Origin: Pseudomonadota bacterium
GTDB taxonomy: Bacteria > Bdellovibrionota > FAC87 > UBA2466
Direction of reading: 5' to 3'
Assembly: GCA_009927165.1 (NCBI GenBank)
Contig: RFNO01000061.1
Coordinates: forward strand, 1-44,135
DNA: 44,135 bases
The position numbers and the translations under genes were made by a program. Under the pieces are notes generated by a model. That model saw nothing but the letters and a program-made list of their open reading frames with translations, was not told the origin of the DNA and searched no databases. Position 1 is the stretch's first letter. The number at the start of each line of letters is the position of its first letter. Below, piece by piece: positions 1,243-22,557 of the stretch.

Positions 1243-2358
1243 ATGGAAATTCAAGTTGAAATAAAGAGAATGGGATTAGAAGGACAAGGAGTTGGTTATG
1301 ATCCCGAAGGGAATATTTATTTTGTGCCCGGTGCTCTCACCGGAGATAAAGTTCTTGTTCGAAGTCCAGAAGATCAAAAAAAATATCGCGACGCTGAAAT
1401 TGTTGAACTCATAGAACCCAATGGAAAAAGAGTTACCCCTATCTGTCAGTATTTCCAAAAGTGCGGTGGATGTGACTGGTTGCAATGGGATTACTCCGCT
1501 CAGCTAGAGGCCAAAGAAGAAATCATTAAGCATATTTTGGATAGGGGTGACTTGAAGCCAGAGATGTTTAAGCCTATTCGAAAAGCTGAGCAGACACTTC
1601 ACTACCGAAACCGAGTACAAATTCGAAAAACAAAAGACACAGTTGGGTTTTTTAGAAAAAAATCTCACGAGCTCATCGATGTGGAAACCTGTCAGGTGGC
1701 GGCACCCGAAATCAATGAAGAGCTGAAGAAAATCAGGAGCGAAAAAACCGAGAGCACAGAGCCGGTAACAAAAATTGAGCTCTACTTAGGGAAAGATGGA
1801 AAAGTTTATCGATTTGATAATGTTCCTCATTCTTTTTCTGGTTTTGCTCAAATTCACTCAGGTCAAAATCAGCTTTTGCAGCAAATGGTGAGAGAAGGAG
1901 TGGTTCAAACACACGGAAAAAAAGTGTTGGAACTCTACTGCGGCGATGGAAACCTCACTTTTGGGTATTTACCCGAAGTAGAGTACGTAGTTGGGGTAGA
2001 CGCGTCGCAAAGCGCTATTGAATCGGCTCGTCTTCAACGGCCAGACGAACTGAAGTCTAAAGTTGCTTTCTTTGCAGACAAAGTGGATTGCGGGTTAGTA
2101 CGAAGGTTGCCACAAGAGTTAAAAGACTATGATACACTGATCGTAGATCCTCCGAGGCAGGGAATGTCAGGTTCGCTCGCTGGATTTTTACATAATCAGT
2201 TAAAAACGATAATCTATATCTCATGTTCTCCAGTGACTTTCACTCAAGACGCACAGTGCCTCAAAAAGGACTTTATTCTTCAAACAGTGGAACCCATCGA
2301 CATGTTTCCCAATACTCGTCATGTGGAATTGGTAACCGTCTGGTCACGGCGTTCTTAG
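1243..2358 (+). CDS. RlmD/TrmA-family class I RNA (uracil-C5) methyltransferase
   Basis: The 371-residue protein transfers a methyl group from S-adenosylmethionine to uracil C5 in rRNA or tRNA. Residues 1-60 resemble a TRAM RNA-binding domain. Cys68, Cys74, Cys77 and Cys150 (CX5CGGC...C) form the 4Fe-4S site typical of RlmD-type enzymes. LELYCGDGNLTF is the SAM motif, VDPPRQGM the conserved DPPR loop, and YISCSPVTF contains the catalytic Cys (SCNP in most members, SCSP here). The ATG at 1243 was chosen over an upstream in-frame ATG at 1195, which would overlap the flavoprotein gene by 46 bases; AAAGGAA lies just upstream of 1243. The exact target (for example U1939 or U747 of 23S rRNA, or tRNA U54) cannot be read from the sequence. 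Confidence 0.9.
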   Translation: MEIQVEIKRMGLEGQGVGYDPEGNIYFVPGALTGDKVLVRSPEDQKKYRDAEIVELIEPNGKRVTPICQYFQKCGGCDWLQWDYSAQLEAKEEIIKHILDRGDLKPEMFKPIRKAEQTLHYRNRVQIRKTKDTVGFFRKKSHELIDVETCQVAAPEINEELKKIRSEKTESTEPVTKIELYLGKDGKVYRFDNVPHSFSGFAQIHSGQNQLLQQMVREGVVQTHGKKVLELYCGDGNLTFGYLPEVEYVVGVDASQSAIESARLQRPDELKSKVAFFADKVDCGLVRRLPQELKDYDTLIVDPPRQGMSGSLAGFLHNQLKTIIYISCSPVTFTQDAQCLKKDFILQTVEPIDMFPNTRHVELVTVWSRRS

Positions 2359-3230
2359 CCCTTTGGTGTTTCTGGGCTTATCCCACCTTTGCTGAAGAAG
2401 CGGGGGGAGATGTGGCCATTACTGTTAAGGAAACCGAATTTAGAAAAGAGGCTTCCAACTTAGCTGATAGTTACGGGATCCTTCCGGTTAAAAGTCTTGT
2501 GACCGTTACCGGAGAGAAAAAAGGTAAATTTATCGGAGTGGAAGTCGAACTAGAAGATGGAACTTTTACCGGGTGGATTGACGCCACTTCACTCAAAAAG
2601 ACGGACTCGAGCGGTGAAAGTGCTGAACAAGAAGAGTCTGAGAAAAAAATCATTCAGCCCAAAAGGTACAAAAAGAAAAATCCGGTCAGTATTCCCAAGG
2701 ACGAAGGAATTCTCTTAGGCCGAGCCCCCACGTTTAGTTACGGGCTAGTCGCGGGTGGCCAGCTCGATTTGATGACAGTCGATTCCGATGGTTCGAGTAT
2801 CAGCGGGAATGGTTACACCATCGGTGGCAGTTTATCTTTTCTTCTCGATCCCTCTTTTAGATTGAGAACGGAAGTTGCTTATACATCTCACGGCGGAGTC
2901 AACGACGTTAATCGATTGGCAATTATCAATTTTCTGGATATTTCCGCAATGGGGGAACTCCCATTGGGCCCGTCATTTTATGCTTTTGCGGGATTCCAAT
3001 ATTCGCTAGGGATTGGGATCGATAATCAAGAAGGGGCTATTCCTTCAGCAGCTTTAACCGATGCTTCTGAGGCCTCTGGTCCTTGGGCCCAGGCGGGTCT
3101 TGGATATAAGTTCTCAGTAGGGGAAATGAGCTTTCTTTCGATTCGGCTCCGTTATGCAGGGGCCATTGTTACCAATCCGATTGCCTTCCATACGTTTGGT
3201 GCTCAAGCCGTCTGGGAAATTGAAGGTTAG
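2223..3230 (+). CDS. Exported SH3b-domain plus beta-barrel envelope protein (start uncertain)
   Basis: The frame is open from an ATG at 2223, but its first 40 or so codons lie inside the methyltransferase gene and do not look like a protein start. A good signal peptide begins near 2328 (GNRLVTAFLALWCFWAYPTFA, cleavage before EEA), yet the only start-like codons there are ATT (2328) and CTG (2340); a GTG sits at 2256. Mature protein: about 60 residues with SH3b features (TVTGEKKGKFIGVEVE...GWIDATSLKK), a charged linker, then about 170 residues of alternating aromatic/hydrophobic strands rich in Gly ending WEIEG, consistent with a small outer-membrane beta-barrel. Function is unknown; possibly envelope structure or peptidoglycan contact through the SH3b part. 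Confidence 0.65.
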   Translation: MFSSDFHSRRTVPQKGLYSSNSGTHRHVSQYSSCGIGNRLVTAFLALWCFWAYPTFAEEAGGDVAITVKETEFRKEASNLADSYGILPVKSLVTVTGEKKGKFIGVEVELEDGTFTGWIDATSLKKTDSSGESAEQEESEKKIIQPKRYKKKNPVSIPKDEGILLGRAPTFSYGLVAGGQLDLMTVDSDGSSISGNGYTIGGSLSFLLDPSFRLRTEVAYTSHGGVNDVNRLAIINFLDISAMGELPLGPSFYAFAGFQYSLGIGIDNQEGAIPSAALTDASEASGPWAQAGLGYKFSVGEMSFLSIRLRYAGAIVTNPIAFHTFGAQAVWEIEG

Positions 3231-3415
3231 ATCCTCATGTCGAACTAAAGGTCATTGGGTTTGCTGTCAGCTTTGTATACGATTGGCCTTAGCGGTACTG
3301 TCCATTCATGGCCCACCCTAAATATTTGAAATAATGAACTAATTTAAAATTGAAATTTTGGACTGTCTGTATTCAGGACAGTCGATAGACACTGGAAACT
3401 GGTGTGGAGGCTTGA

Positions 3416-3478
3416 ATGGGCATCAAAAAATCTGGCACGCCGACTGCAATCTCTAAGATCAACACAACAACCAGTTAA
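3416..3478 (+). CDS. Possible 20-residue leader or micro-ORF
   Basis: ATG at 3416 is preceded by GGAGG (3406-3410), an ideal ribosome-binding site at ideal distance. The frame encodes MGIKKSGTPTAISKINTTTS and stops at TAA 3476-3478. The same frame then remains open for 56 codons through the repeat region and the terminator to a TGA just beyond. This may be a genuine micropeptide, a leader peptide, the 5' part of a small gene cut by a nonsense mutation, or chance. No homolog is recognised, and the sigma54-like site lies inside it. Confidence 0.3.
   Translation: MGIKKSGTPTAISKINTTTS
3433..3448 (+). promoter_or_regulatory. Sigma54-type (-24/-12) promoter candidate
   Basis: TGGCACG, four bases, then CTGCA: this matches the sigma54 consensus TGGCACG-N4-TTGCA at all positions except one T, with exact GG/GC spacing. 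Transcription would start about 12 bases after the GC, near 3459, and run through the CAACTT repeats to the terminator at 3602-3632. It overlaps the micro-ORF, which argues that only one of the two interpretations is functional. Confidence 0.4.
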
Positions 3479-3480
3479 AG

Positions 3481-3583
3481 CAACTTTGGATACATCGAGA
3501 CAAAACAACTTAGGGATACATCTGGGAAGCAGCTTGAAAGACAACTTGAAAAACAACATGAATTAGCAAACTCAGGACAACAT
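3481..3583 (+). repeat. Short imperfect tandem repeats, CAACTT core, about 12-nt period
   Basis: CAACTT/CAGCTT/CAACAT/CAAACT cores start at 3481, 3506, 3530, 3542, 3554, 3567 and 3578. The first two units also share GATACATC (3489-3496 and 3515-3522). In the frame of the micro-ORF the later units read Q-L-E-R/Q-L-E-K, so a coding origin is possible. Confidence 0.6.
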
Positions 3584-3601
3584 CATGTCGTCTGTTTGAT
3601 T

Positions 3602-3632
3602 AAAGGGACTCTTTTTAGGGTCCCTTTTTATT
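3602..3632 (+). terminator. Rho-independent terminator (plus strand)
   Basis: AAAGGGAC (3602-3609) pairs with GTCCCTTT (3620-3627) around a 10-base loop and is followed by TTTTTATTT. The last bases overlap the stop codon of the convergent S9 peptidase gene. On the minus strand the hairpin is not followed by a U-run, so it mainly serves rightward transcription. Confidence 0.85.
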
Positions 3633-5706
3633 TGCCTTTTTCAAACTGATTCTCAAAAAAGTGCACCATCAATCGAGCTTGTTCCAAAATATTTCTCAGT
3701 TTGGTGTTTCCGTGTCCTTCGTCAGGAAAAATCTTTAATTCTACTGGAATATTTTTTTCCTTGAGGGTTTTTACTAATTGCTCTGTTTCACTGACGGGTA
3801 CTCGTGGATCATTTGCTCCGTGAAAAACCAAAAGCGGCGTTTTGATTTTATTCAGATAATTCATGGGGGATACAGAGTTGAGAAACTGCTCGTCAGATAG
3901 AGGACCGTACTCCACTTCTCTTAAAGGTCTTCGATAGGGTTTAGTATTTTTAAGAAAAGTAATGAAGTCGGTTATGCCAACAGATTCAGAAGCTGCTGCA
4001 AACAAATCTCTGCCTTCCTGAATACTTCTTAGCACCATGAATCCGCCATAACTTCCTCCAAAAATGCCGAGTTGATTGGGTAAAGTGTATCCCTGGCTGA
4101 TCAACCACTTTGCTCCTTCTAAAGTGTCTTTAACGCTATCCATTCGTTTTTTGTAATCATCCAAACTAACATAAGTCTTTCCATAACCAGTGCTGCCTCG
4201 AACATTGGGAGCTAAAATTCCAAAGCCCCGCTGGAGAAAATATTGAAATATTTTACTAAAAGCTGGCCGATATTGAGATTCGGGACCCCCATGGCTATAA
4301 ATCACAAACGGAATAGGTCTCTTATTTACTGCGTAATCATTAGGTAAAAATAAAAAAGCTGGAATTTGCCTTCCATCAAATGAAGGATATTTAATGAGAG
4401 TTTCACTAGCGAAACATCGATTGTCGATGAGACTTTTTGCAGTCTGAGTCCAAGGAATCTTCTTGCCCCCGCGCCAGAGCCAAACTCCAGTAGGTTGGGA
4501 AGTAGACGTTTCAGAGAAAAAGAATTGTTTATCAGTGCCTTCGCGAACAAAACTGGGCGATCCCATCACTGCATCTCTATTTCTCGGTACCGAAAAGGGT
4601 TTTTGGAAAAGACCGTTTGATAAAAGCTCTGATCCAGAAAAAATACCATATCCATCTTGGTTCGTCATATAGATCAGACTTCGCCGAGAATTATCTAACT
4701 TAAAATCTTCGATTTCTCCGCTCTCTCGAGTAAGTAAATGAGGAGTTGAGTTTTCTTTGAGATCAATCAGCTGCAATTGCCCCCTCTCGGTTTTGTAATC
4801 TGAGATAAAAAGCAATGAACTTGAATTAGCAGTGAACACCCCTTGTTTACTTGAGGTTTTTCCAAGTGAACTTGTCACATTAGTCATTTTGTTCTTTTTG
4901 AGATCAAAAACCAAAACGTCACTATCTGTAACCGAACGATATTGTGTGAGAGCAATTAGTTGTCCATTCGATGAAATGTCGGTGATGGAGTTCAGACCCT
5001 GCATTTCTGCAAGCAATGTTTCTTTTTTGCTTGAGAGATCCATTTTGTAGAGATCAAAATCGACTCCGTTTCTGCGGTTGGAAGTAAAAGCAATCCAATC
5101 TGATTGGGGCCCCCAAAAAAAACTTTCCACGCGTTCCTTTGGGCCTGCTACTAATGTCTCAAATTCTTTCGTAGTCAATTTCAATAAATGGAGCTGATAT
5201 TGTTCGTTACCTCCTTCTTGAGTGGAGAAAATAATTTGATTGAACTGGGGACTGAGTCGATAATTTACTACTCCTTCGCTAAAAAAGCTTATTTGGCTGG
5301 GCCACTGACCAGGTTGAGACAAGTGAAATACTTGCGGACTCTCCCTCAGATCAGAAAGAAAATAGACACCCCCAACACCATCCGATTGGGGTTGGCTTGA
5401 CGATGTAATTTGTACAAAGGTTTCCACTGAATGGCGCGCGGCACAGTTTGCGGAAACAAGGCCGGCTGTGCTTGTGAGTTTGTTGAGTGATGCTGATTTC
5501 TTAAACCCAGGTATTCCTTTTGACGAGGAACTTTGGGAATTCTCCGAAGATGAGGATTCATTCAAGACAGCTCCCTGCTTTCTGTGTTTTCGTAAGTCGG
5601 GGCCAGACTCGGAAGTGGAGAGGGATTCGGCAGAACCGACTCCTGAAAGTAACCAGCTGAGCAAGATCAGAGTTAAGGCATTGAAATTAAATAAAAAAAA
5701 CGGCAT
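3628..5706 (-). CDS. Exported S9-family serine peptidase (prolyl oligopeptidase/acylaminoacyl type)
   Basis: This 692-residue protein has a signal peptide (residues 1-26, hydrophobic, ending SAES), so it should act in the periplasm or outside. After a Ser-rich linker, residues 100-430 carry WD-like repeats of a beta-propeller (for example WGPQSDWIAFTSNRRNGVDFDLYKMD), which filters peptides in S9 enzymes. The C-terminal alpha/beta-hydrolase domain has GGSYGGFM (nucleophile Ser), HGANDPRVP (Asp) and PDEGHG (His), the full catalytic triad in family order. YSHGGPESQY forms the oxyanion region. AAGGA lies seven bases before the ATG. It stands alone between convergent and divergent neighbours. Substrate is unknown; oligopeptide breakdown is the family role. 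Confidence 0.92.
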   Translation of the reverse strand: MPFFLFNFNALTLILLSWLLSGVGSAESLSTSESGPDLRKHRKQGAVLNESSSSENSQSSSSKGIPGFKKSASLNKLTSTAGLVSANCAARHSVETFVQITSSSQPQSDGVGGVYFLSDLRESPQVFHLSQPGQWPSQISFFSEGVVNYRLSPQFNQIIFSTQEGGNEQYQLHLLKLTTKEFETLVAGPKERVESFFWGPQSDWIAFTSNRRNGVDFDLYKMDLSSKKETLLAEMQGLNSITDISSNGQLIALTQYRSVTDSDVLVFDLKKNKMTNVTSSLGKTSSKQGVFTANSSSLLFISDYKTERGQLQLIDLKENSTPHLLTRESGEIEDFKLDNSRRSLIYMTNQDGYGIFSGSELLSNGLFQKPFSVPRNRDAVMGSPSFVREGTDKQFFFSETSTSQPTGVWLWRGGKKIPWTQTAKSLIDNRCFASETLIKYPSFDGRQIPAFLFLPNDYAVNKRPIPFVIYSHGGPESQYRPAFSKIFQYFLQRGFGILAPNVRGSTGYGKTYVSLDDYKKRMDSVKDTLEGAKWLISQGYTLPNQLGIFGGSYGGFMVLRSIQEGRDLFAAASESVGITDFITFLKNTKPYRRPLREVEYGPLSDEQFLNSVSPMNYLNKIKTPLLVFHGANDPRVPVSETEQLVKTLKEKNIPVELKIFPDEGHGNTKLRNILEQARLMVHFFENQFEKGK

Positions 5707-22370: not shown

Positions 22371-22557
22371 GAGCTCCCCTGTCGGGTGCGTGAGTCACGA
22401 AATGGCTCTGACCTACAAATAGATTTACCGGTAGCCTTCTCTTATTGTGGTGTGCAAGCCTATCGACGAATAGGAAGCCTAAAGCAGTAATCAAGGCAAC
22501 CACCTAACTCTTTGGGTTAGGAGCATTTAGGACCACGGCTTTAAGATGGGGGAGCAA
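22371..22557 (+). ncRNA. ssrS: 6S RNA
   Basis: About 187 nt, close to the E. coli length (184). The ends pair: GCTCCCC (22373-22379) with GGGGAGC (22549-22555). The interior matches the 6S pattern in order: GGTGTGCAAGCC, a short hairpin (CCTATC...GAATAGG), GAAGCCTAAAGCAG, CAACCACCTAACTCTTTGGG, TTAGGAGCATTTAGGACCACGGC. These correspond to the E. coli segments GGTGAGCATGCTC, GAAGCCTTAAAACTG and CACCTTGAACCAAGGGTTCAAGGGTTACAGCC. The RNA mimics an open promoter and sequesters RNA polymerase holoenzyme in stationary phase or starvation. It stands between phaR and a gene of unknown function, with its own promoter. Alignment here is by eye; an Rfam 6S covariance search would settle it. Confidence 0.88.

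Follow-up and report, generated by a model that had tools for sequence, protein, structure and literature searches.

A putative sigma54-dependent small RNA with a phased array of CANCUU-like units in an uncultured Bdellovibrionota group

To our knowledge, protein sponging by bacterial RNAs has been described for only a handful of regulators, CsrA and Hfq above all. CrcZ of Pseudomonas is controlled by sigma54 and CbrB, Qrr and GlmY/GlmZ are sigma54-dependent small RNAs, and EutX/Rli55-type RNAs sequester the ANTAR protein EutV through a recognition element identical to that in the leaders of the regulated mRNAs. Six A-rich stretches of CrcZ serve to titrate Hfq (PMC5501646), and GlmY is a decoy for RapZ (PMC7073468). 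In the phylum considered here, Bdellovibrio bacteriovorus has attack-phase intergenic small RNAs, including merRNA, some of which depend on an alternative sigma factor. Where a promoter has been assigned, the link is to FliA/sigma28, and merRNA has a c-di-GMP riboswitch (PMC3627812).

The window analysed here is the whole stretch of 44,135 nucleotides. It comes from a genome (G000, assembly of 2.47 Mb in 137 contigs; G-numbers designate genomes and C-numbers contigs) that belongs to an uncultured Bdellovibrionota group, according to synteny and to the record names of related genomes (Bdellovibrionaceae UBA2466, Bdellovibrionales Baikal-deep-G133 and MAGs labelled Deltaproteobacteria or Bdellovibrionaceae). 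The region 3433-3632, made of a sigma54 promoter, a repeat array and a terminator, apparently corresponds to a predicted small RNA, previously undescribed. It lies in an intergenic gap that we measured at 397 nt (3231-3627), as given in the initial annotation. On one side is a gene for an outer-membrane beta-barrel protein (OMP; 2223-3230, plus strand; PF13505 just below the cut-off), a syntenic marker whose homologs adjoin the RNA in relatives. On the other is an S9 prolyl oligopeptidase gene (3628-5706, minus strand; PF00326 and synteny), which is missing at the locus in some relatives, where dnaJ is next instead. The predicted RNA, of about 175 nt (3457-3632, plus strand) and longer in some relatives, has a promoter and a terminator on its two sides, in like orientation in every genome. 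It matches no Rfam family above the gathering score (sub-threshold matches of 13-20 bits), and differs in this respect, as well as by its repeat array, from Qrr and GlmY/GlmZ. It shares phylum and intergenic location with the attack-phase RNAs of B. bacteriovorus, but those of them with a known promoter are linked to FliA/sigma28. A search of the open-access literature found no description of an RNA of this array kind.

The -24/-12 promoter TGGCACGCCGACTGCA is located at 3433-3448 (plus strand), exactly where a TGGCACG-N4-CTGCA site had been noticed, with GG at 3434-3435 and GC at 3446-3447, hence the GG-to-GC offset of 12 nt of such promoters. It has a counterpart at the matching place in all 15 homologous regions compared (14 genomes of the family, f1, and one of a sister family). 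From the usual sigma54 spacing, the RNA would start at about 3457-3459. TGGC-N7-YTGCW sites are in excess in G000 (143 rows versus 42 for the reversed pattern, both including some double rows due to a 1-base gap choice in the pattern), which is consistent with an active sigma54 regulon. Furthermore, two genes with the motifs of sigma54 activators (enhancer-binding proteins), GESGTGKE and GAFTGA/GAFTDA, are present in the sampled stretches of this genome, on C14 and C68; their products are candidate activators. Upstream of the promoter, the sequence TGTATAC (3274-3280, plus strand), which starts 159 nt before the -24 element, is a candidate activator site. The motif TGTATNC occurs in 13 of 15 homologous upstream regions versus 3 of 23 control sigma54-like sites. 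It is found at -158/-159 in genera g1 (the genus of the window: G000, G001 and G002), g2 and g8, and at -147 in g6, a difference of about one helical turn; this placement has the form expected of an enhancer site. By direct reading, a palindrome, GACTGTC-TGTATTCAG-GACAGTC (3361-3383), is a second candidate activator site, with TGTATTC at -65, an extra TGTATNC copy common to the three g1 genomes.

Downstream of the predicted start, phased-chain and out-of-sample profile tests delineate an array of about ten CANCUU-like units (3468-3583, plus strand) with a pitch of 12 +/- 1 nt. The units start at 3468 (CAACCA), 3481 (CAACTT), 3494 (CATCGA), 3506 (CAACTT), 3519 (CATCTG), 3530 (CAGCTT), 3542 (CAACTT), 3554 (CAACAT), 3567 (CAAACT) and 3578 (CAACAT), i.e. 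with spacings of 13, 13, 12, 13, 11, 12, 12, 13 and 11 nt. Five of them score strongly. The seven CAACTT-like units with a period of about 12 nt reported initially were therefore a conservative count. Over the family, the unit reads CANCUU(G/A)(A/G)A, in an A-rich array with a pitch of about 12 nt. A unit profile trained on 11 RNAs of other genera only, with the window RNA and those of G001 and G002 left out, has the consensus AACAACTTGAAA, with C, A, C and T as strongest letters. Applied to the window RNA, it detects 5 units versus 0.27 in dinucleotide shuffles (P<=5e-4, the floor of 2000 shuffles), and the phased-chain score of the array is 59.8 versus a shuffle maximum of 18.4. When the 15 RNAs are pooled, in counts that overlap partly with the training set of the profile, the distances between units fall at 11-14, 23-26, 35-39 and 47-51 nt, with nearly empty gaps and values close to zero in shuffles; within these ranges they concentrate at 12-13, 24-26, 36-39 and 48-50 nt. 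The phased array beats its own shuffles in 14 of 15 RNAs, barely so for G002, and reaches 18 phased units in the RNA of G005. There is one good unit in G008 and there are few in G002, which indicates that the array is not maximal in every genome. The steady pitch of about 12 nt suggests regularly spaced or cooperative binding. It also equals four codons and, in the window, a 54-codon frame overlaps the array, as would be expected of a protein-coding repeat of four residues per unit; such a repeat is nevertheless extremely improbable, given that spacings of 11, 13 and 14 nt disrupt the frame, that the longest frames span 5-26 codons in most homologs (51 and 41 in two) and that none is conserved.

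The RNA would end at an intrinsic terminator (3602-3632, plus strand), the only one detected within 3200-3700; it had been noticed earlier at this position and is composed of a stem of 11 bp (3602-3627) and a T tail (U in the RNA). Relatives have terminators at the same place with unrelated sequences. More generally, the succession of TGGCAY-N6-TGCA, units and a GC-rich terminator is found in the syntenic gap of 14/14 family genomes and of the sister-family genome. G004 and G006 carry the complete cassette inverted, on the opposite strand, without any change in the order of its elements. A BLAST search of the region in 97 relatives returned only short pieces at chance level. Hence, promoter, array and terminator have been retained although DNA similarity has been lost, beside an OMP gene that is still syntenic. 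The initial annotation had named a lack of conservation of repeats and -24/-12 bases as one of the results that would refute its proposal; both are in fact conserved (promoter in 15/15, phased array in 14/15).

The distribution of this element appears narrow. A pattern combining the promoter, 60-90 nt and two units matches 4 of 369 genomes of the phylum, all in the family of G000, versus one match for the reversed control in all 369 genomes. A second pattern, searched in about 85,000 species, retrieves 31 stretches, of which 7 are true members, all from this uncultured Bdellovibrionota group; the other 24 lack the array, a number close to the 28 or so expected by chance. In other families of the phylum, pattern and profile scans found no homolog of the array type that also has a sigma54 site. 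Moreover, outside the family, the matches retrieved from 192 genomes with a 60-position array profile lack a sigma54 site and several lie inside open frames, which indicates that the array by itself lacks specificity. Exact 12-bp CAACTT tandem arrays also exist in another family of the phylum (L052, 1501-1686, in G146:C91, and L053, 1508-1537, in G119:C79), but their surroundings have no sigma54 site.

Ten RNAs from five genera have (C/T)GGC(A/T) 5' of the array and AGCC(G/A) right after it. RNA folding pairs these two segments in a long-range stem whose extensions vary by genome, for instance GGUAA/UUACC in G009, GGAA..CUC/GAG..UUCC in G004 and GGUGUAAC/GUUAUCACC in G011. In G007, UGGC/GCCA replaces CGGC/GCCG, a U-A for C-G exchange. 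For the inner helix of the ten RNAs, the energy with their own partners is -71.5 versus -51.7 +/- 5.0 with 5' and 3' partners swapped (P=1.5e-4), i.e. a total swap cost of about 20 kcal/mol, which amounts to about 32 kcal/mol over all 15 RNAs (P=5e-4). No closing stem stands out on folding in genus g1, the fold stability of the window RNA is not unusual (z -1.4), and the units are predicted to be no more unpaired than the remainder of the RNA. A covarying long-range stem would make little sense if the region did not act as RNA. Since this stem spans the array, since the oriented promoter and terminator survive inversion and since the pitch is about 12.3 and not 10.5, it is very improbable that the region is a DNA-level element (an array of DNA-binding sites) or is not expressed.

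Same-sense units are also found behind other sigma54-type promoters, in the leaders of lipoprotein and small secreted-protein genes, where they usually end beside the Shine-Dalgarno sequence. These cases, all found by motif search, comprise two ortholog groups and single cases. The first group, located by protein similarity, encodes a small secreted protein (G000:C47, G001:C4 and G002:C113), and its leader in G002:C113 is the best array match in G002 (E=1.8e-4); the second encodes a lipoprotein (G000:C24, G001:C1, G010:C57 and G013:C270). An upstream half-site, CTGTC, is shared by 7 of 13 leaders versus 2 of 23 controls, which is only suggestive of a signal. The two-unit leader pattern exceeds its reversed control only about threefold. 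At 362 gene starts, taken from a sample of stretches, units are not enriched (9 sense and 18 antisense at 9 bits or more). Among the 80 sigma54-like sites listed for G000, 3 have a unit of at least 9 bits versus 1 on the reverse strand, and most sigma54-like leaders have no unit. In view of this lack of global enrichment, the set of mRNA targets, if real, would be small. Some leader matches, including L121, L129 and L134, resemble protein-coding DNA and were discounted as chance matches.

Several observations were made on individual genes. The secreted-protein gene of G002:C113 (L093, about 1240-1500; G002:C113:13240-13500) shows a change of frame between its apparent start and its body, in the signal-peptide region, and its orthologs are intact in G000 and G001. 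A DUF4423 protein is encoded downstream of a sigma54-like promoter whose leader has TAACTT/TAACTAGGGGG (L173, from 137; G000:C35:39736). On the minus strand of L233 (G000:C35), a gene starting at 4002 is preceded, about 30 nt upstream, by a single, very strong unit of 15.3 bits, AACAACTTGAAC, with no recognised sigma54 site.

The presence of the same-sense motif in a multi-copy RNA and in the ribosome-binding regions of mRNAs resembles a decoy, as in CsrB and CrcZ, and the same-strand motif in some leaders would favour the sponge or multi-binding idea. Location of the leader units beside Shine-Dalgarno sequences, together with as many as 18 phased units in one RNA, could also be explained by a structural or scaffold RNA, or by a binder of the ribosome or S1 with CAACUU as upstream translation enhancer; we consider this unlikely, given that units are not general to leaders and that sigma54 control points to a conditional regulator. 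The main rival to the decoy model, itself doubtful but a little less so, is a multi-seed antisense RNA, in which CAACUU units would recognise AAGUUG stretches of several mRNAs by base-pairing, or an array sponging a small RNA that carries the complement. Repeated A-rich seeds could serve several targets, and no protein binder is known. However, the motif conserved across orthologs in sigma54 leaders is the same sense and not the complement, AAGTTG is not enriched near the 362 sampled starts (18 versus 15 for CAACTT), none of the 14 family genomes gave a match to Hfq, the usual helper, and a strict pitch of about 12 nt kept over 50 nt is unnecessary for seeds.

If the RNA is a decoy, the regulator that it binds may differ from those already described. 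Like CrcZ and CrcY, the Hfq/Crc decoys of Pseudomonas, which titrate a translational repressor bound near ribosome binding sites, it is small and has A-rich motifs in several copies. It differs from them by a CANCUUGA unit at a fixed pitch of about 12 nt, by a long-range closing stem, by its lack of Rfam match and by its host genomes: an Hfq profile, positive in control genomes, gave no match in 14/14 family genomes. Membership of the CrcZ type was rejected on this basis and for want of AAN repeats, the conserved CANCUU having C at two fixed positions. The CsrA decoys CsrB, CsrC, RsmY and RsmZ also have many copies of a motif that is found at the ribosome binding sites of mRNAs, but the motif of the array has no conserved GGA and is not in regular hairpin loops. 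A CsrB/RsmZ-type decoy for CsrA would be compatible with the profile search, which finds CsrA encoded in 13/14 family genomes, and with the fact that some units abut GGA (4 GGA in the window RNA). It is quite unlikely, as five RNAs (G001, G002, G008, G009 and G011) have no GGA and the others few (0-4 per RNA overall), the conserved letters being CANCUU; for lack of multiple GGA, CsrB-type membership was also rejected. Lastly, like EutX/Rli55, the array RNA has its putative recognition unit in common with some mRNA leaders, but it has a sigma54 promoter and neither riboswitch nor two-hairpin ANTAR element. Since no Hfq was found and the GGA of CsrA is missing from five RNAs, the leading idea is a regulator that would recognise a new motif.

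As a whole, the best explanation, to which we give about an even chance, is a sigma54-transcribed sponge RNA that would titrate a putative RNA-binding regulator. The promoter, array, terminator, conservation, stem covariation and motif common to orthologous leaders are features of the sequences themselves, from which expression, a protein binder, titration and the sign of regulation would be deduced. An enhancer-binding protein at the upstream TGTATNC sites would turn on sigma54 transcription of the small RNA, which would end by factor-independent termination. In most relatives, a short long-range stem would hold the CANCUU(G/A)(A/G)A array in a big loop. The array would then act as a multi-site decoy titrating a putative regulator, not Hfq and probably not a classical CsrA, that would otherwise be bound to one or a few units just 5' of the Shine-Dalgarno sequence in some sigma54-driven messages for lipoproteins or secreted proteins. 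Synthesis of the RNA would hence change, most likely relieve, the translational control of surface proteins. More tentatively, and with somewhat less than an even chance, a new regulator reading CANCUU(G/A)A could control surface lipoproteins in a lineage without detectable Hfq, with the sigma54 RNA as its dedicated multi-site decoy and perhaps cooperative binding of one subunit per about 12 nt.

Sponge RNAs are of a known kind, and genuine novelty could lie in the putative binder. A conserved array, a new motif, a strict pitch and Hfq not found together point to an unrecognised RNA-binding regulator, for which the array is a ready bait. If true, this would be a further decoy system alongside CsrA/CsrB and Hfq-Crc/CrcZ, and the array RNA may connect sigma54 with the control of surface proteins among uncultured bacteria related to predatory Bdellovibrio.

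Elsewhere in the window, at 22373-22556 (plus strand), lies a 6S (SsrS) RNA that scores 101.6 bits for a gathering score of 46.4.
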